Source: Thalassospira xiamenensis M-5 = DSM 17429 (GTDB lineage Bacteria > Pseudomonadota > Alphaproteobacteria > Rhodospirillales > Thalassospiraceae). Taken from it: a DNA stretch of 64,000 nucleotides. The translations under genes were made by a program, and so were the position numbers. The stretch spans positions 1,965,501 through 2,029,500 of the forward strand of contig NZ_CP004388.1 in NCBI RefSeq assembly GCF_000300235.2, read 5' to 3'. The notes under the pieces were generated by a model. That model was not told the DNA's origin, ran no database searches, and worked only from the letters and a program-made list of their open reading frames with translations. Of the stretch, positions 1-45,317 are shown piece after piece (positions within the stretch are counted from its first letter, which is position 1; each line of letters opens with the position of its first letter).

Positions 1-1100
1 AAATTTTGAAGGCCCTTTATCGGGGGGCCGAAATTCTAATTCTGGACGAGCCGACCGGGGTTCTGACCCCGCAGGAAGCCGATCATCTGTTCCGCATTCT
101 GGAAACCCTGAAACAGCAGGGCAAAACGGTTGTTCTGATCACGCATAAACTGCGCGAAATCATGGCGGCAACGGACAATGTTTCCGTGATGCGCCAGGGT
201 GAAATGGTGGCCCATCGCAAAACGGCCGAAACCAGCCCCGAAGAACTTTCCGAACTGATGGTCGGCCGCAAGGTGCTTTTGCGCCTTGAAAAGGGTGAGG
301 CCGCACCGGCGGCAACGGTTCTTGAGGTTGATAATCTGTGTGTTGAAACATCGCAGGGGGTGCGCAAGGTCAAGAATGCCAGCTTTACGGTGCGTGCTGG
401 CGAGATCGTCGGCATTGCCGGGGTTTCCGGCAACGGGCAAAGCGAACTTCTTGAAGCGCTTGGCGGGATACGTACGGTAACCGAAGGCCTGGTCCTTTTA
501 AACGGGCAGGATGTGACGCCCGGTCGTGGTGTGGATGCCGCCGAACTGCGTAAGCGCGGTGTCGCCCATGTGCCTGAGGATCGCCATCGCATGGCAATGG
601 TGACGTCATTTTCGGCCAAGGAGGCCGCTATCCTCGGTTACGAGGATGACGCGACCTATCAGAATGGGCTTTTCCTGAACTGGCATGCAATTTCCGATGC
701 TACCGAACATATGATGTCGGAATTCGACGTAAGGCCAAATGATCCTGATCTGAAAGCGGCCAATTTTTCCGGTGGCAACCAGCAGAAGCTGGTTCTGGCG
801 CGTGAAATCATGCGCGATCCAGAGCTTCTTCTGGTCGGACAGCCGACGCGCGGTGTCGATATCGGTGCCATCGAATTCATTCACAAACGTATTGTTGCGA
901 TGCGTGATGCTGGCAAGGCCGTTTTGCTGGTATCCGTCGAACTGGACGAAATCATGTCTCTTGCCGACCGCATACTGGTGATGTGTGATGGTGCCATCAT
1001 CGGTGAAGTTTCTGCTGCTGATGCCAATGAACGGGTGCTTGGCCTGATGATGGCCGGAGTTGATCCCCATGAAGCCAAAGCTGCGGAGGGGCAGGCATGA
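1..1100 (+). CDS. Nucleoside ABC transporter ATP-binding protein, 5'-truncated by the window edge
   Basis: ATPase subunit of a BMP/Nup-type (YufO-like) nucleoside importer, which hydrolyses ATP on the cytoplasmic face of the membrane. The reading frame is open to the first base of the window, so the true start and the first Walker A lie upstream. The visible part begins just before the Walker B of the first ABC domain ([12 protein letters not shown]). It is followed by a second ABC domain with a P-loop-like GVSGNGQSE near residue 140 and the signature FSGGNQQKL near 255. Two tandem ABC domains in one chain are typical of the sugar/nucleoside CUT2-like class. Its stop overlaps the start of the permease gene by 4 bp (ATGA). 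The function is well supported by the two permeases and by the nucleoside catabolic genes downstream; the exact substrate is inferred. Confidence 0.93.
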
Positions 1101-2215
1101 GTGACAGTGTTCAACTGCCGCGCTGGATTGATGTCGGCGCGTTGCCGCTGCTTAATCTTTTGCTGGCACTCGTTGTTTCGGGGCTTGTTGTTCTGGCGAT
1201 TGGTGAAAGCCCGACGCAAGTCGTTGAAATCCTGCTTTATGGCGCGTTTGGCTATGAAGAGGCGTGGGGCTATACGCTTTATTACACCACCAACTTCATC
1301 TTTACCGGTCTGGCCTTTGCCGTGGCATTCCATTGCGGTCTGTTCAATATCGGTGCCGAGGGGCAGGCCTATGTCGGTGGCCTTGGTGTTATTCTGGCGG
1401 CCCTTTACCTTGATTTCCTGCCATTCCCGATCATGCTGATCGTTGCCATTCTGGCCGCAGCAGTTTTCGGTGCGGCGTGGGCTTATATCCCGGCCTATTT
1501 ACAGGCACGTCGCGGGTCGCATGTCGTGATTACCACGATCATGTTCAATTTCATTGCGTCGTCGCTGATGGTTTATCTGCTGGTCAATGTTCTGCGCCCG
1601 CAGGGATCAATGACCCCGGAAAGCGAACAGATTGCCGAACATCTGCGTTTACCGTTCATTCATGATATCGCGGCCACCTTTGGTATCGAAATGGCCAGCA
1701 GTCCGCTGAACCTTTCGTTTGTGTATGCGCTTGTTTGCAGTGTTCTGGTCTGGCTGTTCATCTGGCATACCAGATGGGGGTATGCGATCCGCACGGTTGG
1801 TGCCAATGCGGTTGCCGCGACCTATGCCGGGATCGAGCCAGGACGTTACATCATCATGGCGATGATGATTTCAGGCGCGCTTTCGGCCTTCATGGCGCTT
1901 AACGAAGTGATGGGGGTCCAGCACCGGTTGCTGATTGATTTCACGGCCGGGTACGGCTTTGTCGGGATCGCGGTTGCCCTGATGGGGCGCAATCACCCGT
2001 TTGGTATTTTTCTGGCGGCATTGCTGTTTGGGATGCTGTATCAGGGCGGGGCGGAGCTCAGCTTTGAAATCCCGACGATTTCGAACGATATGGTCGTGGT
2101 TATTCAGGGGCTTGTTATCCTGTTTACCGGTGCGATGGAGCATATGTTCCGTCCGCGCGTGACCCGGATTTATACAGCGTGGCATTTGCGCCGCCGTGCG
2201 CAGGAGGCCGCATAA
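1097..2215 (+). CDS. Nucleoside ABC transporter permease (YufP-like)
   Basis: Inner-membrane permease of the BPD_transp_2 class, 372 residues with about ten hydrophobic segments. The stretch FNIGAEGQAYVGGL near residue 84 matches the conserved cytoplasmic loop of Nup/Rbs-type permeases. The start ATG overlaps the ATPase stop and follows a GGAGGGG Shine-Dalgarno. The gene ends in TAATG, so it is translationally coupled to the second permease. It should form a heterodimeric pore with that protein. Import of purine and pyrimidine nucleosides is inferred from the cdd, punA and deoA genes in the same operon. Confidence 0.93.
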   Translation: MSDSVQLPRWIDVGALPLLNLLLALVVSGLVVLAIGESPTQVVEILLYGAFGYEEAWGYTLYYTTNFIFTGLAFAVAFHCGLFNIGAEGQAYVGGLGVILAALYLDFLPFPIMLIVAILAAAVFGAAWAYIPAYLQARRGSHVVITTIMFNFIASSLMVYLLVNVLRPQGSMTPESEQIAEHLRLPFIHDIAATFGIEMASSPLNLSFVYALVCSVLVWLFIWHTRWGYAIRTVGANAVAATYAGIEPGRYIIMAMMISGALSAFMALNEVMGVQHRLLIDFTAGYGFVGIAVALMGRNHPFGIFLAALLFGMLYQGGAELSFEIPTISNDMVVVIQGLVILFTGAMEHMFRPRVTRIYTAWHLRRRAQEAA

Positions 2216-37711: not shown

Positions 37712-38254
37712 TCAGAATGAAGAGTTTGGTTCTTTCAGGAACGCAATTTCATCTGGCGTTGATGTCCGCCCCAGAATGTCATTACGGTGCGGATAGCGAC
37801 CGAAACGATCAATGATCCGTTTGTGTTTGATTTCGTAGCCATGATTGTTTTCAAGGCCCGGCTGGTTAAACAAATCCAGTGCGATTTCGTGAATGGCTTC
37901 TGATTCCGAATGCATGTAGGGCATATACAGGAAGGATTTTTCGGCGGGCTTGGTCAGTTTGGTATCAAAGCCATGTGCAATGGCTTCCTGTGCCAGAGCG
38001 AGTGCCATAGGGTCGGAGGCAAAGGATTCCGGTTTGTCGCGATAGATGTTGCGAGAAAATTGATCCAGAATAATGATTTCAGCCAGTCGGCCATGTGCGG
38101 TTTTGCGCCAGCCATACAATTCCCCGGCTGCCGCGGCGGCATGAAAATCAGCAAATCGTTCTGCGATATAACGGTCAATTGCAGTGTCTTTTTCAAACCA
38201 TTGTTTAGGCTCAAGTTCCTTGAACCAGAACACAAGAATGGATTCAGGTTTCAT
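37712..38254 (-). CDS. DUF924 family protein
   Basis: 180 residues with family blocks VLVFWFKELEPKQWFEKD-like (ILVFWFKELEPKQWFEKD) at the N-terminus, IIILDQFSRNIYRDKPESFA near residue 62 and KHKRIIDRFGRYPHRNDILG near 142. DUF924 proteins are cytosolic, helical and of unknown function. Convergent with the YbiB-like gene. Next to the nickel operon on the same strand but probably separate, as 61 bp lie between. Confidence 0.9.
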   Translation of the reverse strand: MKPESILVFWFKELEPKQWFEKDTAIDRYIAERFADFHAAAAAGELYGWRKTAHGRLAEIIILDQFSRNIYRDKPESFASDPMALALAQEAIAHGFDTKLTKPAEKSFLYMPYMHSESEAIHEIALDLFNQPGLENNHGYEIKHKRIIDRFGRYPHRNDILGRTSTPDEIAFLKEPNSSF

Positions 38255-38315
38255 GGGGCGTTTCCCGTTCTTTTAAGATTGCTGAAGCATAGGCGAGCTC
38301 GCAAATGCCAGCAAG

Positions 38316-38975
38316 TCAGGCTTTGGATATAACGCCATCCTGAAGGCGAACGGAACGTGTTGCGACATGATCAAGAAATAGATGATCATGGGAAATGATC
38401 ACCATCGCCTGCGGTAAAGAGCGCAAAATTGCGATCAGACGTTGCTCGACATCGGCATCAAGCCCGTTGGTTGGCTCGTCAAGCAGAAGGATTTCGGGCG
38501 ACATCGCCAGAACTGTTGCAAGTGCAACCAGTCGCTTTTCACCACCGGAAAGCTGATAAGTGATCCGGGTTTCAAATCCGCCCAGTCCGAGATCAGCTAG
38601 CGTTTGCATAGCTATTTTTCGCGCATCATAGCGCGATTGACCAAGGTTAAGCGGGCCAAACATCACGTCTTCAAGAACGGTCGGGCAGAAAAGCTGATCA
38701 TCGGAATCTTGAAACAGCAACCCAACCCGGCCGCGAACGGCGCGAAATTCTGATTCTGTTTCGCATCTTGACCCAAGAATGGCTATCTCGCCATTCTCTG
38801 CTGTGACTAAACCCATCAGACAATGCAACAGGCTGCTTTTTCCAGCGCCATTCGCCCCCATCAGGGCCAATCTTTCACCGGTCCGCAGGTACAGGTCCAC
38901 ACCATTCAAGACCTTGCGCCCGGTGGGGAAGGTGAAATGCAGGTTTTTGACTGTGATCAGATCAGCGGCGGACAT
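38316..38975 (-). CDS. nikO: Nickel ECF transporter ATP-binding protein
   Basis: Single ABC ATPase, about 219 residues, CbiO/NikO type. Walker A MGANGAGKSS, signature QLSGGEKRLVALATVL, Walker B LLLDEPTNGLD. It powers nickel (or cobalt) import by energy-coupling-factor transport. The frame is open 132 bp further upstream, inside nikQ, but ATG 38975 has GGAGGT upstream and gives the family N-terminus (MSAADLITVKNLHF). It overlaps nikQ by 19 bp. Last gene of the nikKMLQO cluster. Confidence 0.93.
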   Translation of the reverse strand: MSAADLITVKNLHFTFPTGRKVLNGVDLYLRTGERLALMGANGAGKSSLLHCLMGLVTAENGEIAILGSRCETESEFRAVRGRVGLLFQDSDDQLFCPTVLEDVMFGPLNLGQSRYDARKIAMQTLADLGLGGFETRITYQLSGGEKRLVALATVLAMSPEILLLDEPTNGLDADVEQRLIAILRSLPQAMVIISHDHLFLDHVATRSVRLQDGVISKA

Positions 38976-39733
38976 GCGACCTCCAACCCGATCAGGGCAG
39001 CGGTGAAAAGGATGAGGGCACTGGCAAACAGATAATCCTGAGGACTGAACCGGGGCAGGGAGCCGAAATGCATATGACCGTGATAGGCACGACATTTCAT
39101 CGCCCAAAGAATGCGTTCTGAACGATCATGGCTGCGCACCAACAGCATCCCAAGTAAATATCCAAAACTGCGCCAGCTATGACGATTGTTACGCGCGACA
39201 AAGGCGCGTGCCCGCATGGCAACATGCAGGCGCAGATATTCCCGCCGCAAAAGATCGATATAGCGAATGGTAAACATGAAAAGCGTCACCAGCTTTGCCG
39301 GAACGTATATCCCCTGCAAACCCCGCCCCAGAAGGATTGCATCCATTCCGCCCATCAGTGCAATCAGAACAAGTATCGCAGCATTTGCCTTAAGCGCGAT
39401 CAGCACGGCCTGGAACAGTCCCTGATAGCTGGCGTCAAAACTCCAAAGGGTGAATATCACATCACCGGGCACGGTAAAGGGCAACATGATCAGCATCACA
39501 AGGATGAAGCCATCCATGGTCAAAACCATTTTAAGTGTTCTGGACCAGTTGGGTTTGGCAAAACCGGTAATGATCGCAGCGACCAGAACCAGCATTGCCA
39601 ATGGTTGCCAGCTTGAAAAACTGACGGCTGTTACGATCAGTGCGAGAGCTGCCAGCAAACGACAGCGTGGATCAATCCGTGACAGAACTGAATTGGATCG
39701 TGACGGTACAAGGACATTTGTCGCCCCGATCAT
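38957..39733 (-). CDS. nikQ: Nickel ECF transporter T-component
   Basis: Transmembrane coupling subunit, 258 residues, five or so helices, CbiQ family. The conserved cytoplasmic coupling motif region is MRARAFVARNNRHSWRSFGY near residue 180, with LVRSHDRSERILWAMKCRAY following (Ala-Arg-Gly-like helices that contact the ATPase). It overlaps both neighbours, indicating an operon. Nickel rather than cobalt is inferred from the gene order. Confidence 0.9.
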   Translation of the reverse strand: MIGATNVLVPSRSNSVLSRIDPRCRLLAALALIVTAVSFSSWQPLAMLVLVAAIITGFAKPNWSRTLKMVLTMDGFILVMLIMLPFTVPGDVIFTLWSFDASYQGLFQAVLIALKANAAILVLIALMGGMDAILLGRGLQGIYVPAKLVTLFMFTIRYIDLLRREYLRLHVAMRARAFVARNNRHSWRSFGYLLGMLLVRSHDRSERILWAMKCRAYHGHMHFGSLPRFSPQDYLFASALILFTAALIGLEVACPPLI

Positions 39734-40398
39734 GGTTTTTCATTCTGCTGATCGGGCCGTGATTTTCCGGCCCTGAACCATGCAAAGGCCCCGAATATTC
39801 CGACGATGACACCAATCCCACCCAGAAGATCGGAGAATCGGACTTTGTCCTCATAGGCAACCAGCTGTTCGCGCAAGGGCCGAACATGACGGGATACAGC
39901 CGCATCAATCAGGTTGTCCAACTCGTCCCGCGAAAGGGTGACCGTTGTGTTGGAACTATCCGTGGCAATGATTGTCGATGGGGGATGTGTTTTTTCGTTT
40001 TGAGACGAGGATGCTGTGTCAATCTGGCTGACCTGAACATCGATACCTTCATTTCCTGAGGGCAATTGACTGGAAAGCTCATCACCATTGATTTCGAAGC
40101 TGGCGATATGGCCATCACCGGAATTGGCTTCGATGACATAATCCTGTTTGTGGCTGACGCGAAGTTTGAATTCACCCTGATCATCGGTCTTTCCGGCAAA
40201 AATAACGCGACCTGTATCATCGAGAAGCTGGATTTTCGCATCATGTGGCCGGGCACCGCCCCCGAAATAGGCATAGCCGTCGATGACGTCGCCGTTTCCC
40301 ATCGCAAAAACATGCAGGCTGTGTGCCTGGGCATTGACGGATATGAACAGCGTGCCGATCAGAACAGAAAATACGCATAAAACGGGAAATCGCGGCAT
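39730..40398 (-). CDS. nikL: Nickel ECF transporter accessory membrane protein
   Basis: 222 residues: N-terminal signal (PVLCVFSVLIGTLFISVNAQ, then AHSLHVF), a periplasmic domain like a carboxypeptidase-regulatory/CbiL fold (GVDGYAYFGGGARPHDAKIQ-like), and a single C-terminal membrane helix (LGGIGVIVGIFGAFAWF). NikL/CbiL-type accessory subunits occur in nikKMLQO-type systems in place of CbiN. Overlaps nikQ by 4 bp and lies 3 bp after nikM. Confidence 0.85.
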   Translation of the reverse strand: MPRFPVLCVFSVLIGTLFISVNAQAHSLHVFAMGNGDVIDGYAYFGGGARPHDAKIQLLDDTGRVIFAGKTDDQGEFKLRVSHKQDYVIEANSGDGHIASFEINGDELSSQLPSGNEGIDVQVSQIDTASSSQNEKTHPPSTIIATDSSNTTVTLSRDELDNLIDAAVSRHVRPLREQLVAYEDKVRFSDLLGGIGVIVGIFGAFAWFRAGKSRPDQQNEKP

Positions 40399-40401
40399 CG
40401 A

Positions 40402-41025
40402 TCAGGCCGCATTTCGAAGCGAGCCGACGGGGGCCAACATGACCGGACGGACTTTTTTGACAAGATGCACGGCTGCTGCGGTCAGGATACCTTCAACCAC
40501 CATGACCGGTATGTGGCTCATGACCACAAGCTTTGCGGTTGGAACAAATTCCTGCCCGCTGGCTGCAAGTGACAGGCCAACCATTATGCTTGAAAGGGCA
40601 ATGGCACCGGACCCGGCGACAAAACCTGCCAGCAAGATCGATTTACCTTCGGCACGTGTCAGAAACGGTGAAACCAGCCACCACATCAAAACCGCAGGCA
40701 GGGCGATGTTGATTGTATTTACACCCAGAACGGTGATGCCGCCGAAACCAAAGAAAACCGCCTGCAATAACAGTCCGATGAATATTGCCGGGAAAACAGC
40801 CCAGCCCAGCATCAACCCTGCCAAGCCATTGACGATAAGATGTGCGCTGCTTGGCCCGACAGGAACATGGATCAGGGAAGCAACAAAGAAAACCGCACTC
40901 ATCATCGCCACACGGGGCATCGCATCAATATCGATTTTACGAAGTCCGTAACCGATACCTGCAACCGCAAAAACGGCGCCGGCTACAACGACTTCACTCG
41001 ATAGGGCTCCATCGACGATGTGCAT
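40402..41025 (-). CDS. nikM: Nickel ECF transporter substrate-binding membrane protein
   Basis: S-component of 207 residues, CbiM/NikM family, about six to seven membrane segments. I start at ATG 41025 because the chain then opens MHIVDGALSS; the free N-terminus and His2 (with MHI) bind the metal in NikM/CbiM and must not be extended. A frame continuing to 41091 has no motif. His residues in LIHVPVGPSSAHLIVNGLAG near 50 are also conserved metal-site neighbours. 207 bp separate it from nikK, and that gap carries an operator-like repeat. Confidence 0.92.
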   Translation of the reverse strand: MHIVDGALSSEVVVAGAVFAVAGIGYGLRKIDIDAMPRVAMMSAVFFVASLIHVPVGPSSAHLIVNGLAGLMLGWAVFPAIFIGLLLQAVFFGFGGITVLGVNTINIALPAVLMWWLVSPFLTRAEGKSILLAGFVAGSGAIALSSIMVGLSLAASGQEFVPTAKLVVMSHIPVMVVEGILTAAAVHLVKKVRPVMLAPVGSLRNAA

Positions 41026-41181
41026 GGTCAAATCCCTGTTAAGTGCATTTGCAATCCTGACGTCTACAGGACTGGCCTGCAAACGGATCAATTTACGTGT
41101 GCATTTTGTTCTGGTGGGGCAGGCAGGTCATAAATCCTACCTGAAAATCGTAGCGATTTCGCAGTCGCGAAGTCAAGCGGG

Positions 41182-41208
41182 TTTCATATTTTTTACAAAT
41201 AAGTATGA
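41182..41208. promoter_or_regulatory. Operator-like site A upstream of nikM
   Basis: TTTCATA, 14 AT-rich bases, then GTATGA. The identical half-sites at the same 14-bp spacing occur upstream of nikK (42097-42123). GTATGA and TCATAC are the known half-sites of the nickel repressor NikR, though in E. coli they face the other way round. Distance to the nikM start is about 157 bp. The binding protein is inferred. Confidence 0.6.
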
Positions 41209-41232
41209 CAGGCCTGGCGTGTTGCTCGAAAG

Positions 41233-42018
41233 TCAGTCCATTGGGTCGGTTTTAACCCAGATAACACCGCCGCGTTCGACTGGGACCTGATCATCCGATC
41301 CTGGGGCCGTCATCGTGCCATCTTCGACCAAGGCGGCAAACGCCCACCAACCATCATGGGGCATGGCATAGTTGAAAACACCATTGCCATCGGCTTTGAT
41401 GACCTGCGTTGAAAAACTTTCGTTTGGTAGTGTGATGCTGCCGTCATTGGCATATTCAACCTCGACCTCGGCAAACGGTACCGGTTCGCCGTTATGACGG
41501 ACAATCCCGCTGAATACATTACCTGTCCAGATGCCATAGGGGCGGGTCAGGGGCTCTATCTCGACCGGGAAGCCAACCATCTGGTCCCATTCTTCACCGG
41601 CACCAAACGCATCAATGATCGTTTTGGTGTACTGGATGATGTATTTACCCTCGGACGGTTCGAAATAGGGAATCGGTTCGACATAAAGCGCGTATCCGCC
41701 GGGACGATCAATATGGACAGTGGCGTCGAAGGCTGCTTTGCCATCGACCGTCTTTGCCACCAGACTGTCGCCAAGATCGGTTTTATTGCCGTTGGTCTGA
41801 ATGCCAAACCGAACCGGCCGTGCCATTTCCATTGCCGGGCCATTGGTCATTGGATGGGTAAAGGTCAGGTCGACCTCGATATCGCGACCGGTTTCCTGAG
41901 TGACCACGTTGGTTGACGGGATCATCTTCTGGAAGTGGGCCTGTGCAGCATGCTGGGCACCGATCAGCAACCCAAATGAAAAGCCCGCGGTCACGATAAA
42001 CCGGAAAGGAATCGACAT
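41233..42018 (-). CDS. nikK: DUF4198 nickel-transport periplasmic protein
   Basis: 261 residues with signal peptide FIVTAGFSFGLLIGAQHAAQ ending at AHFQKM, then a mature beta-rich DUF4198 domain (VDLTFTHPMTNGPAMEM near 48, and the C-terminal FNYAMPHDGWWAFAALVED). DUF4198/NikK proteins are periplasmic and associated with Ni/Co ECF importers. The order nikK, nikM, nikL, nikQ, nikO is the known nikKMLQO arrangement. Several histidines in the mature chain could ligate metal. First gene of the operon, 80-105 bp downstream of the second operator-like site. Confidence 0.87.
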   Translation of the reverse strand: MSIPFRFIVTAGFSFGLLIGAQHAAQAHFQKMIPSTNVVTQETGRDIEVDLTFTHPMTNGPAMEMARPVRFGIQTNGNKTDLGDSLVAKTVDGKAAFDATVHIDRPGGYALYVEPIPYFEPSEGKYIIQYTKTIIDAFGAGEEWDQMVGFPVEIEPLTRPYGIWTGNVFSGIVRHNGEPVPFAEVEVEYANDGSITLPNESFSTQVIKADGNGVFNYAMPHDGWWAFAALVEDGTMTAPGSDDQVPVERGGVIWVKTDPMD

Positions 42019-42096
42019 CTTTCTGTCCTGTGAAACTGGAATGATGCCGTACCCTATGGCGACCGATTTGCCGGGTCAATCCATTGAAACAAGATG

Positions 42097-42123
42097 TTTC
42101 ATAAAATATTTTAAAACGTATGA
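42097..42123. promoter_or_regulatory. Operator-like site B upstream of nikK
   Basis: TTTCATA, 14 AT-rich bases, GTATGA, matching site A exactly in both half-sites and spacing. It lies about 80-105 bp before the nikK start, in the space between the secDF terminator and nikK. Confidence 0.62.
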
Positions 42124-42136
42124 TTCTCTGGGATTT

Positions 42137-42167
42137 ATCGAAACCGGCGATGAAAGCCGGTTTCGAT
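42137..42167 (-). terminator. Hairpin after secDF
   Basis: Perfect 12-bp stem (ATCGAAACCGGC / GCCGGTTTCGAT, loop of seven), 18 bp past the secDF stop. On the minus strand it is followed by AAATCCC, a weak T-tract, so termination may be partial. Confidence 0.72.
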
Positions 42168-42184
42168 ATGGTCATATGGTCTTG

Positions 42185-44758
42185 TTAACTGGATGCCTTT
42201 ATCAGGGGATTGTCATCAATGTCGGTTTCTGATGCCAGTCGCGCATGCTTCTGGCGTTGTTTCTGTCGCCATGTGTCGAGGAACAGCAGGATTGGTGCCG
42301 CGATATAGATCGACGATGTCGTGGCAATCACAACGCCGAACACCATCGGAACGGCAAAACTTTCAACGGCAGACCCGCCCCAGATCGCCATTGGCACCAT
42401 CGCAAAAAGGGTTGTCAGAGATGTGAAAAGGCACCGGGCAAGTGACTGGTTGATCGACATGTCGATGATTTCACGCATCGGCATTTTTCGATAAAGCCGC
42501 AGGTTTTCACGCATCCGGTCATAAACCACCACCTTATCATTGACCGAATAGCCGATCAGGGTGAGCAGGGCTGCAATGGCCGTCAGATTGAAGTCGAGCC
42601 CCATAATCGCGAAAAAGCCGATGGTCTTGGTCACATCAAGGATCAATGTCACAATCGCGCCAACGGCAAATGGCCATTCAAACCGCCACCAGATATAGCA
42701 CAGCATCGCGAGGCTTGCGAAGATGACAGCGCTGACACCAGATTGGGCCAATTCACCGCTGACTTTGGGACCAACGACTTCTGTGCGTTCAAAATCTGCT
42801 GCCGGATCAATTGATTGCACGGCTTTCTTAACTGTCTCGACGGCTGCTGTCTGTGTCTGTTCGCCGCCTGGCTGACGTTCAACCCGGATCAGGATATGGC
42901 CATCCTTGCCGATATCCTGAAGGCTGACATCGCCAAGCCCCAATGTCGAAAGTTCCTGTCGCAAGGCTCCAAGGTCAAGCGGGCTGTTACCGTTATTCGC
43001 ACTGCCACTGGCAACTTCAACCTGAATGCCGCCCTTGAAATCAACCCCGTAATCAAGACCGGGTTTGAAGAACAATCCGATTGAAATAGCAGACAGCAAA
43101 AGCGACATTCCGATGCCGAGAAAACGTGCCCGCATGAAAGAAATGCTGGTTTTTTCGGGCATGAAACGCCAAAGCGGTTCAATGACGAGCTTTTTCATAC
43201 GGGTGCGCCAGACGATTTCGGTCATGATGACCCGAACCACGGCAACCGCGGTAAACATCGAAATCACGATGCCAAGACCCATGGTGATGGCAAAGCCACG
43301 CACCGGGCCGGACCCGAACTCAAACAAAAGGGCGGTTGCGATAAGGGTTGTTATGTTGGAATCAACAATCGTGGCATAAGCACGCTTGAACCCGGAATCG
43401 AGCGCCATGAACGCCGAAAGGCCCCTTTTGGTTTCTTCCCTGATACGTTCGTTGATCAGAACGTTGGCATCAACTGCAAGCCCGATCCCCAAAACAATCC
43501 CGGCAATCCCGGGCAGGGTCAACGTTGCCCCCATAAGACCAAGCGCACCAAATGTCAGTATGACGTTAAGCCCCAATGCCAGATTGGCGATAAGCCCCCA
43601 GCGGCCATAAAGCAAAAACATCAGTCCGGTTACCAGAGCCAAACCGATCAAGCCGGTATAAAGGCCCATTTCGATGGCATCTGCACCAAGGTCGGGGCCG
43701 ACGGTCCGTTCTTCGATCACGGTCATTGGTGCGGGCAGAGACCCGGCACGAAGAAGTGCAGAAAGTGTTACCGTTTCACCAACCGTAAAGCTGCCGCTGA
43801 TCTGGCCCGAACCACCGGTTATCGCTTCCCGGATGACTGGTGCGCTAAGGACTTCGTTGTCCAGAACAATGGCAAAGGGTTTTCCAACATTGGCGCGTGT
43901 GATATCGGCGAACTTTGCCGCACCGGCCGTATCAAACCGGAAATTGACAACTGGTTGATGGCTTTGCGGATCAAATCCGGCATGGGAATCTGTCAGATGA
44001 TCGCCCGAAAGGGCTGGAGTACGATGCAAGTGATAGCTTTGCCCGTCCTTGTCCTGCAAAGTTAGTACACTGCTGTCGCGTTTATCGGTCCTGCTGCGAT
44101 CCGCGAGCATATAGAAGCCAAGCTTTGCGGTGCTGCCCAGAAGTTTTCGGACCTGTGACGGGTCCTGAACGCCGGGCAACTGAACCAGAACACGATCACT
44201 GCCAATCCGTTGGATCGTTGGTTCCGATACGCCGATCTGGTCGATGCGGCTTCGAATGATCTCAAGGCTTTGCTGGGCGCTGGCGTCGACCCGGTTGCGA
44301 ATGCCCTGTTCGCTAAGTGCGATATGGATGCTGTTATCGGATGGCGCGGTAATGACAAATTCTGCCGTTGATCCGTGTCGTGGTGTTTCAACCTGCACAT
44401 TAGCAAGGTCTTCCAGAGCATCAAGGGCACCATCGTGGTCCTTGGTATCAGACAGGCTTACAATCACCTGATCATTACTGATCTGAATGCTGTTGGTGTC
44501 GACATTGGCCTTGCGAAGGGCGTTTGTGACATCATCGCGCGTTATTTCAAGGCGTTCGGCGATCATTGCCGCAGTATCGATTTCAAGCACAAGGTGCGAT
44601 CCGCCTCGCAGATCAAGGCCAAGGGCAACCTGGCGTGTTGGTAAAAATGAGGGCCAGTCTGCAAGCTGAGCCGGGGTGAAAAGGTTTGGCAGGGCTGTCA
44701 GGAAACCTGTCAGAAGGACAAGGCTATAGACAACCACGCGCCATCTTGATGTACGCAT
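42185..44758 (-). CDS. secDF: SecDF fusion, protein-export membrane subunit
   Basis: 857 residues joining SecD (about 1-540) and SecF (about 560-857) in one chain, with about twelve membrane segments. SecD marks are VALGLDLRGGSHLVLE near residue 45 and IGVSEPTIQRIG near 205; SecF marks are LDYGVDFKGGIQVEVA near 580 and GYSVNDKVVVYDRMRENL near 755. SecDF uses the proton-motive force to pull preproteins across the inner membrane. I start at ATG 44758; a GTG 18 bp further upstream is unlikely. Separate SecD and SecF are usual in this group, so this could be a second copy. Confidence 0.9.
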   Translation of the reverse strand: MRTSRWRVVVYSLVLLTGFLTALPNLFTPAQLADWPSFLPTRQVALGLDLRGGSHLVLEIDTAAMIAERLEITRDDVTNALRKANVDTNSIQISNDQVIVSLSDTKDHDGALDALEDLANVQVETPRHGSTAEFVITAPSDNSIHIALSEQGIRNRVDASAQQSLEIIRSRIDQIGVSEPTIQRIGSDRVLVQLPGVQDPSQVRKLLGSTAKLGFYMLADRSRTDKRDSSVLTLQDKDGQSYHLHRTPALSGDHLTDSHAGFDPQSHQPVVNFRFDTAGAAKFADITRANVGKPFAIVLDNEVLSAPVIREAITGGSGQISGSFTVGETVTLSALLRAGSLPAPMTVIEERTVGPDLGADAIEMGLYTGLIGLALVTGLMFLLYGRWGLIANLALGLNVILTFGALGLMGATLTLPGIAGIVLGIGLAVDANVLINERIREETKRGLSAFMALDSGFKRAYATIVDSNITTLIATALLFEFGSGPVRGFAITMGLGIVISMFTAVAVVRVIMTEIVWRTRMKKLVIEPLWRFMPEKTSISFMRARFLGIGMSLLLSAISIGLFFKPGLDYGVDFKGGIQVEVASGSANNGNSPLDLGALRQELSTLGLGDVSLQDIGKDGHILIRVERQPGGEQTQTAAVETVKKAVQSIDPAADFERTEVVGPKVSGELAQSGVSAVIFASLAMLCYIWWRFEWPFAVGAIVTLILDVTKTIGFFAIMGLDFNLTAIAALLTLIGYSVNDKVVVYDRMRENLRLYRKMPMREIIDMSINQSLARCLFTSLTTLFAMVPMAIWGGSAVESFAVPMVFGVVIATTSSIYIAAPILLFLDTWRQKQRQKHARLASETDIDDNPLIKASS

Positions 44759-44873
44759 GAAAAATAAACTCCGCACAGCAGTCAGACCGGGCCAACCTGA
44801 TACCCGGTTATGCTGTCATCTGATATTTCTGGAAACACGGCGCATATCGTGCCGCGATTATGAGTAGGAGAAA

Positions 44874-45317
44874 TCAGACCCGAAAGGGCGGAGCGCGCGG
44901 GGAAAATGGAAGAATTTCAGCGCCATGAGTGGGGATTGCACTTGCCACAAAGATGCATTTTGCCCGTTGGGCGGCTGTATGCTGTGTGACCGACGGTACA
45001 ACAACGGCATCATCGGGGAAGGTTGGCTTATGGCTTGGTAAATCGTCCGGGGTTTGGCGGGGACTGGCAATGGCACGATCCAGTGCCACCGGAAGGACTG
45101 CCTGCGACGGGCCGCTATCATGATTGACGCTATTAAACGGATAGGGGAAAGTCGACCCGTCGGAAATTGGCGTGTCAGTAACGGATGTGCCGCCACCAAA
45201 CAGGATAAGCGCGCAAGCAATCAGGCAAAATGCAGCATGGCGCAACAAACCCGGCAGGGATTGACTACGATCACGATGATCTATTGCCTTTGCGGCTTGG
45301 CTCGGTGGTTGGTTCAT
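44874..45317 (-). CDS. Putative small membrane or secreted protein
   Basis: 147 residues from ATG 45317. One hydrophobic segment near residues 30-45 (GLLRHAAFCLIACALILFGG), then a proline- and serine-rich tail with no domain I recognise. It lies 115 bp upstream of secDF on the same strand and could be co-transcribed. The ribosome site is weak and the composition only moderately coding-like, so the call is tentative. Confidence 0.4.
   Translation of the reverse strand: MNQPPSQAAKAIDHRDRSQSLPGLLRHAAFCLIACALILFGGGTSVTDTPISDGSTFPYPFNSVNHDSGPSQAVLPVALDRAIASPRQTPDDLPSHKPTFPDDAVVVPSVTQHTAAQRAKCIFVASAIPTHGAEILPFSPRAPPFRV

Follow-up and report, generated by a model that had tools for sequence, protein, structure and literature searches.

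According to the available part of PMC7055735, NikR inhibits nickel-import genes, and the Escherichia coli operator before nikABCDE reads GTATGA-N16-TCATAC, with 21 bp between the centres of its pentamers. In Helicobacter pylori, a gap of 15 nt separates the NikR pentamers and their centres are 20 nt apart, a distance described as two helix turns and assigned to one tetramer (PMC5385501, in excerpt); they have the forms TRTTA and TAWTA, and swapped order goes unmentioned in the accessible passages of PMC5385501 and PMC4464171. The latter paper, in those passages, models H. pylori NikR as acting upstream of the ureA promoter, with activation from upstream and repression on the promoter. Signals in which the NikR halves stand in the opposite orientation were predicted in 2004 in the delta-proteobacteria, in the form GTAACAC-N13-GTGTTAC: the consulted part of that work (Rodionov 2004, PMC545781) places them before nikMLKQO and a second cluster in Desulfotalea psychrophila and before nikK of Desulfovibrio vulgaris, where nikMQO has the ordinary order.

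The candidate sites described here, before the nik genes of Thalassospira, resemble these delta-proteobacterial signals in their swapped halves and 27-bp frame, but their halves are TATGA-type, as in enterobacteria, instead of GTGTTAC (PMC545781, same part). They share the GTATGA half-site with the E. coli operator, in the opposite order and with 20 instead of 21 bp between pentamer centres (PMC7055735, same part). Their 15-nt gap and 20-nt centre distance are those of H. pylori, whereas their pentamers are TATGA-type and swapped. Compared with what the 2004 work reports in the part consulted, reversed sites precede nikK and nikM separately in Thalassospira, promoter-like pairs are visible beside them, and 29 genomes of a single genus were compared. 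Since reversed NikR signals were predicted there, the kind is already known and the lineage is new; the placement of the sites upstream of -35 may also be new. Within a coverage that leaves out most subscription journals, a search for Thalassospira together with NikR found no paper, and one for opposite-orientation NikR found nothing beyond PMC545781 and a broad review.

Two reversed sites in the nikKMLQO locus

The window, that is, the whole 64,000-nt stretch of DNA that was analysed, carries on its minus strand, behind secDF (42185-44776), the nikK, nikM, nikL, nikQ and nikO genes of a nickel/cobalt ECF importer, with nickel as the predicted substrate (Table 1). The earlier note had reported twin copies of TTTCATA-N14-GTATGA in this locus, and a pattern scan located both without mismatch and nowhere else in the window: one (41182-41208) lies before nikM, in the 207-bp gap between nikK and nikM, and the other (42097-42123) before nikK, both being genes of predicted nickel transport. 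Their halves are inverted and NikR-type, with centres 20 bp apart (within about 20-22 bp), and at both sites the order is the reverse of the ordinary GTATGA...TCATAC, in agreement with the earlier remark that it is opposite to that of E. coli.

Table 1. Features of the nik locus, in window coordinates
Feature	Coordinates	Strand	Remarks
Reversed NikR-type operator (candidate), nikK	42098..42124	-	core 42099-42123; pentamers 42119-42123, 42099-42103
nikK promoter (inferred)	42051..42079	-	TTGACC-N17-TAGGGT; operator ends 19 nt upstream of -35
nikK	41233..42018	-	ATG at 42018; DUF4198, PF10670; no NCBIfam model match; named from operon position
Reversed NikR-type operator (candidate), nikM	41183..41209	-	core 41184-41208; pentamers 41204-41208, 41184-41188
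nikM promoter (inferred)	41147..41176	-	TTGACT-N18-TACGAT; operator ends 7 nt upstream of -35
nikM	40402..41025	-	ATG at 41025; CbiM family, PF01891
nikL	39730..40398	-	NF058648, NikL family
nikQ	38957..39733	-	CbiQ, TIGR02454
nikO	38316..39005	-	ECF-type ABC ATPase; start codon uncertain; under curated cut-offs of CbiO/ECF models

The suspicion that such a pair is improbable by chance held, as about 0.0014 exact matches are expected from base composition per window and 0.1 per genome. The relaxed core TCATA-N15-TATGA was then scanned through the genome (4,768,950 bases), as the earlier note had proposed, and has its sole two perfect places in the two nik gaps. Because a control pattern, the core read backwards, likewise has 2 places in the genome and base composition predicts about 3 for the core itself, the copy number is unremarkable and what counts is location: the probability that two random core places both fall inside the 373 bp of the nik gaps is about 6e-9. 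A plasmid search with positions 42000-42200 of the window gave no match.

Conservation in related genomes, on which the earlier note had staked its reading, was examined in 29 Thalassospira genomes, and both sites are kept. Orthologues of nikK (at least 63% identity) occur in 19 of them, all 19 preceded by a reversed site, which is perfect at N15 in 17, has a single mismatch in G019 and is perfect at N16 in G011; before nikM, the site is present in 11 of the 11 genomes having a nikK-nikM gap. The pentamers are thus perfect at N15 in 28 of 30 nikK and nikM upstream regions, and across the 30 aligned sites they are invariant except for one base of one site. Genome G020 has a second reversed site before a second nikK that directly abuts nikM without a gap; as this site belongs to the second nikK, it was left out of the nikM count, and the nikM match of G006, for which no locus was obtained, was dropped before counting.

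When 1.5-kb flanks were scanned at 27 same-genus nikM loci, 12 had a perfect reversed site and 15 had none, and in these 15 genomes a divergent nikK (36-42% identity) stands beside the matched nikM. No reversed site within 2 mismatches was found in 10 upstream regions of this paralogue, in a scan of 420 nt that may end short of the promoters and from which 6 of 16 paralogue rows, having no loci, were dropped. A search for nikK outside the genus (84,980 species, two peptide patterns that distant relatives could escape) returned 15 loci, 14 of them in Thalassospira and one in a Rhodospirillales MAG.

NikR and ordinary-order sites in the genus

Each of the 29 genomes has a single NikR match, which leaves no NikR-less genome in the set for comparing site loss. 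The NikR of the window's genome passes the NikR equivalog cut-off, has E. coli NikR as its best solved-structure match, and keeps R3, T5 and S7 near its start as well as the H/H/H/C positions (three His, one Cys); we take the former to be the DNA-contacting and the latter the nickel-contacting residues of NikR. Its gene lies 1.1 Mb from the nik locus of the window beside a divergent DUF4198 gene, and the gap between the two carries the ordinary order, GTATGA-N15-TCATAC. This ordinary-order site was found in 18 of the 29 genomes, in 9 of them perfectly and in 9 with a single mismatch (gaps of N13-N17 scanned); all 18 have a divergent frame of 262-265 aa with similar beginnings, the DUF4198 family assignment coming from G000. 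At locus L003, the DUF4198 gene (453-1244, minus strand) is divergent from nikR, with an ordinary NikR-type site common to both.

Ordinary-order N15 sites also precede nikA in all four genomes having this gene and hupE in all six having that one (two with one mismatch), although their spacing is partly circular, both groups having been first noticed via the exact N15 pattern and then sought by protein in the 29 genomes. The two orders occur side by side: G010, G019, G023 and G027 combine the ordinary order at nikA with the reversed order at both nikK and nikM, and G003 and G011 combine the ordinary order at hupE with the reversed order at nikK. Together, the ordinary sites at nikA, hupE and nikR and the reversed ones at the nik genes suggest that NikR genes of this genus share TATGA pentamers separated by 15 nt and arranged in either of two orders. 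The earlier description of the half-sites as NikR-type thus gains support from a NikR encoded in the same genome and from the same half-sites before nikA, hupE and nikR/DUF4198.

Conservation in the genus, NikR in every genome, the ordinary-order sites and the 20-bp spacing point to NikR operators with swapped halves as the most likely identity of the reversed sites. As far as sequence can tell, the two sites of the window are probably operators for the single NikR of the genome, through which nikK and nikMLQO would come under nickel control. Each site would be occupied by a single NikR tetramer, whose two ribbon-helix-helix pairs would each contact one TATGA pentamer. A tetramer could span both TATGA-N15-TCATA and TCATA-N15-TATGA, since the distance between pentamer centres is 20 bp in either arrangement, and inverting each half-site need not disturb the tetramer, given the twofold symmetry of the ribbon-helix-helix pair. 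Read in this way, the genus lends many-genome support to the 2004 prediction, swapped NikR halves apparently being tolerated if about 20 bp apart, a rule that makes a testable statement on how ribbon-helix-helix tetramers read DNA. It would also follow that NikR regulon searches using the ordinary motif alone miss targets such as this ECF importer.

Promoter-like pairs and the direction of control

Both sites are followed by a conserved -35/-10-like pair of their own (Table 1), which supports the earlier suggestion of two promoters in the operon, as inferred from these pairs. The nikK pair, TTGAC-N17-TA, is found in 12 genomes, with a gap from operator to -35 of 19 nt in 10 and 18 nt in 2, and the nikM pair is kept in 11 genomes, with a gap of 7 nt in 6 and 18 nt in 5; at the second site of G020 the gap is 18 nt. 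In all, TTGAC(T/C/G)-N17/18-TA lies downstream of 24 of the 31 reversed sites, at each of which it is the best or tied-best scoring pair, the distance from site end to -35 being 7, 18 or 19 nt. If -35 starts at -36, the site centres would by our own arithmetic fall near -56, -67 and -68. The other seven sites, all before second-clade nikK genes, have no TTGAC within 30 nt downstream (G011 has one at 34) and overlap weak -35 candidates. Given that each operator would serve its own promoter, nikK and nikMLQO could form separate transcripts, both controlled by nickel. A DNA loop joining the two sites is also conceivable.

Just after the inferred nikM start, a hairpin can be read by eye on the minus strand (41124-41143, CAGGT/ACCTG, loop of 10). 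Relatives have CAGGC/GCCTG there, with both sides of one pair changed, in a comparison of six genomes in which one pair is broken in G005.

The nickel-responsive repressor proposed in the earlier note fares well as to the likely identity of the regulator, NikR, but NikR need not be a repressor here, as 24 of the 31 reversed sites lie upstream of -35, a placement uncommon for a simple repressor that is activator-like or would fit alpha blocking. Within the NikR reading we lean slightly, with about an even chance, towards a nickel-dependent lowering of transcription in which NikR would cover the AT-rich RNA polymerase alpha stretch, repression being favoured by the inhibition of nickel-import genes that PMC7055735, in the part available, ascribes to NikR. 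The chief alternative to lowering is activation from upstream, a possibility to which we give less than even chances.

In the explicit form of that alternative, which we hold to be rather unlikely and whose share of belief is taken from within the NikR reading and adds nothing to it, NikR would activate at the reversed sites by helping to recruit RNA polymerase and repress at the ordinary sites on core promoters (nikA, DUF4198/nikR). The distances of 7, 18 or 19 nt between 24 sites and a TTGAC -35 fit such a role, as does the change of gap from 7 to 18 nt, which at 11 bp is about one helical turn but may reflect a single event. The ordinary site overlaps -10 at nikA in 4 of 4 genomes, TTGAC starting 24 nt before it, and a TTGAC immediately precedes the DUF4198 site in 17 of 18 cases, an arrangement in line with the H. 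pylori model, as far as the accessible passages of PMC4464171 describe it, of activation from upstream and repression on the promoter. Against this, a nickel importer activated by nickel would be odd physiology, the nikK sites of seven genomes lack a nearby TTGAC and overlap weak -35 candidates, and no TTGAC lies within 40 nt upstream of the ordinary site in any of the 6 hupE cases. A bolder generalization from the sequences, which we regard as unlikely, is that half-site order tracks both place and sign: ordinary sites on the core promoter would repress nikA, hupE and nikR/DUF4198, reversed sites upstream of -35 would activate the ECF importer, and one sensor would exchange nickel importers as nickel rises. 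Should the sign indeed depend on order and placement, dual regulation by NikR would extend beyond Helicobacter.

That the sites belong to a different regulator whose half-site is TCATA/TATGA, with an accidental likeness to NikR half-sites, we consider improbable. NikR binding is deduced from sequence, and the G of GTATGA is missing from the promoter-side half in 24 of the 31 reversed sites, including both in the window; the 7 that have it are the very second-clade nikK sites without a nearby TTGAC, and no others. However, in this genus an identical pentamer, also with a 15-nt gap, precedes nikA, hupE and nikR/DUF4198 in the ordinary order, and reversed NikR signals were independently predicted in another class (PMC545781, in the part consulted). 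It is very improbable that the sites have no operator role and are chance repeats or AT-rich UP (upstream) elements: the spacers average 81% A+T against 54% for upstream regions, conservation extends in part to a run of T at spacer positions 8-11 and to A's immediately following the site, and the window shows no enrichment at up to 3 mismatches (16 matches against a shuffle mean of 12.7; 17 of 100 shuffles reach 16), but each pentamer base agrees in 29 or 30 of the 30 aligned sites amid mostly variable flanks, the spacing is fixed, and the genome's only two perfect copies both lie at nik genes. NikR operators with swapped halves therefore remain the reading that we prefer.

The pattern elsewhere, nickel use and riboswitches

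Across the genus, TCATA-N15-TATGA is not specific to nik genes. In the 29 genomes there are 73 perfect reversed places against 17 for the control pattern, of which 29 are the nikK and nikM sites and 44 lie elsewhere, and 62 perfect ordinary-order places against 14 for the control, 17 of them at nikR, nikA or hupE; some non-nik places recur as an identical string in many genomes. At the ordinary-order places fetched from G000, G005, G020 and G026, the neighbouring genes were not nickel-like by eye. An ordinary-order site before a gene EamA-like by eye (L171 1987-2011; G000:C1:3703886) has near-identical counterparts in G015 and G025. A reversed site of G022 (L119), also before a gene EamA-like by eye, was taken as chance, as were two one-mismatch N16 matches, one reversed and overlapping the ordinary site before hupE of G018, the other ordinary and some 240 nt upstream of nikR in G010. 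A search of 289 genomes from the class for perfect TCATAC-N13-GTATGA gave 9 places in 8 genomes, none with a protein match to nikKMLQO, nikA, hupE or nikR in the 3 kb fetched; as G000 itself scores 0, this form is stricter than the sites of the window, so degenerate reversed sites may exist elsewhere.

Nickel use is likely throughout the genus, as every one of the 29 genomes has a urease alpha; no [NiFe]-hydrogenase was matched in any of the 29, and the imported nickel would presumably serve urease. A riboswitch upstream of the nik genes of the window was dismissed, no Rfam family matching positions 38000-45000 up to E 1. Rfam searches of 12 loci from relatives found cobalamin riboswitches in 7, and in G010, G026 and G020 one lies downstream of a reversed site, so that cobalt may be a substrate besides nickel. 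At L010, L011 and L121, a reversed NikR-type site and a cobalamin riboswitch share one upstream region, where a double control by nickel and B12 is possible. A different operon, nikK'MLQO, has a cobalamin riboswitch upstream in the same genus (L116, L028) and in other families (L029, L032); both same-genus divergent-nikK loci searched, L116 and L028, carry the riboswitch, and three more loci align with L116 there. At L116, this nikK'MLQO operon adjoins orthologues of nikK and nikL.
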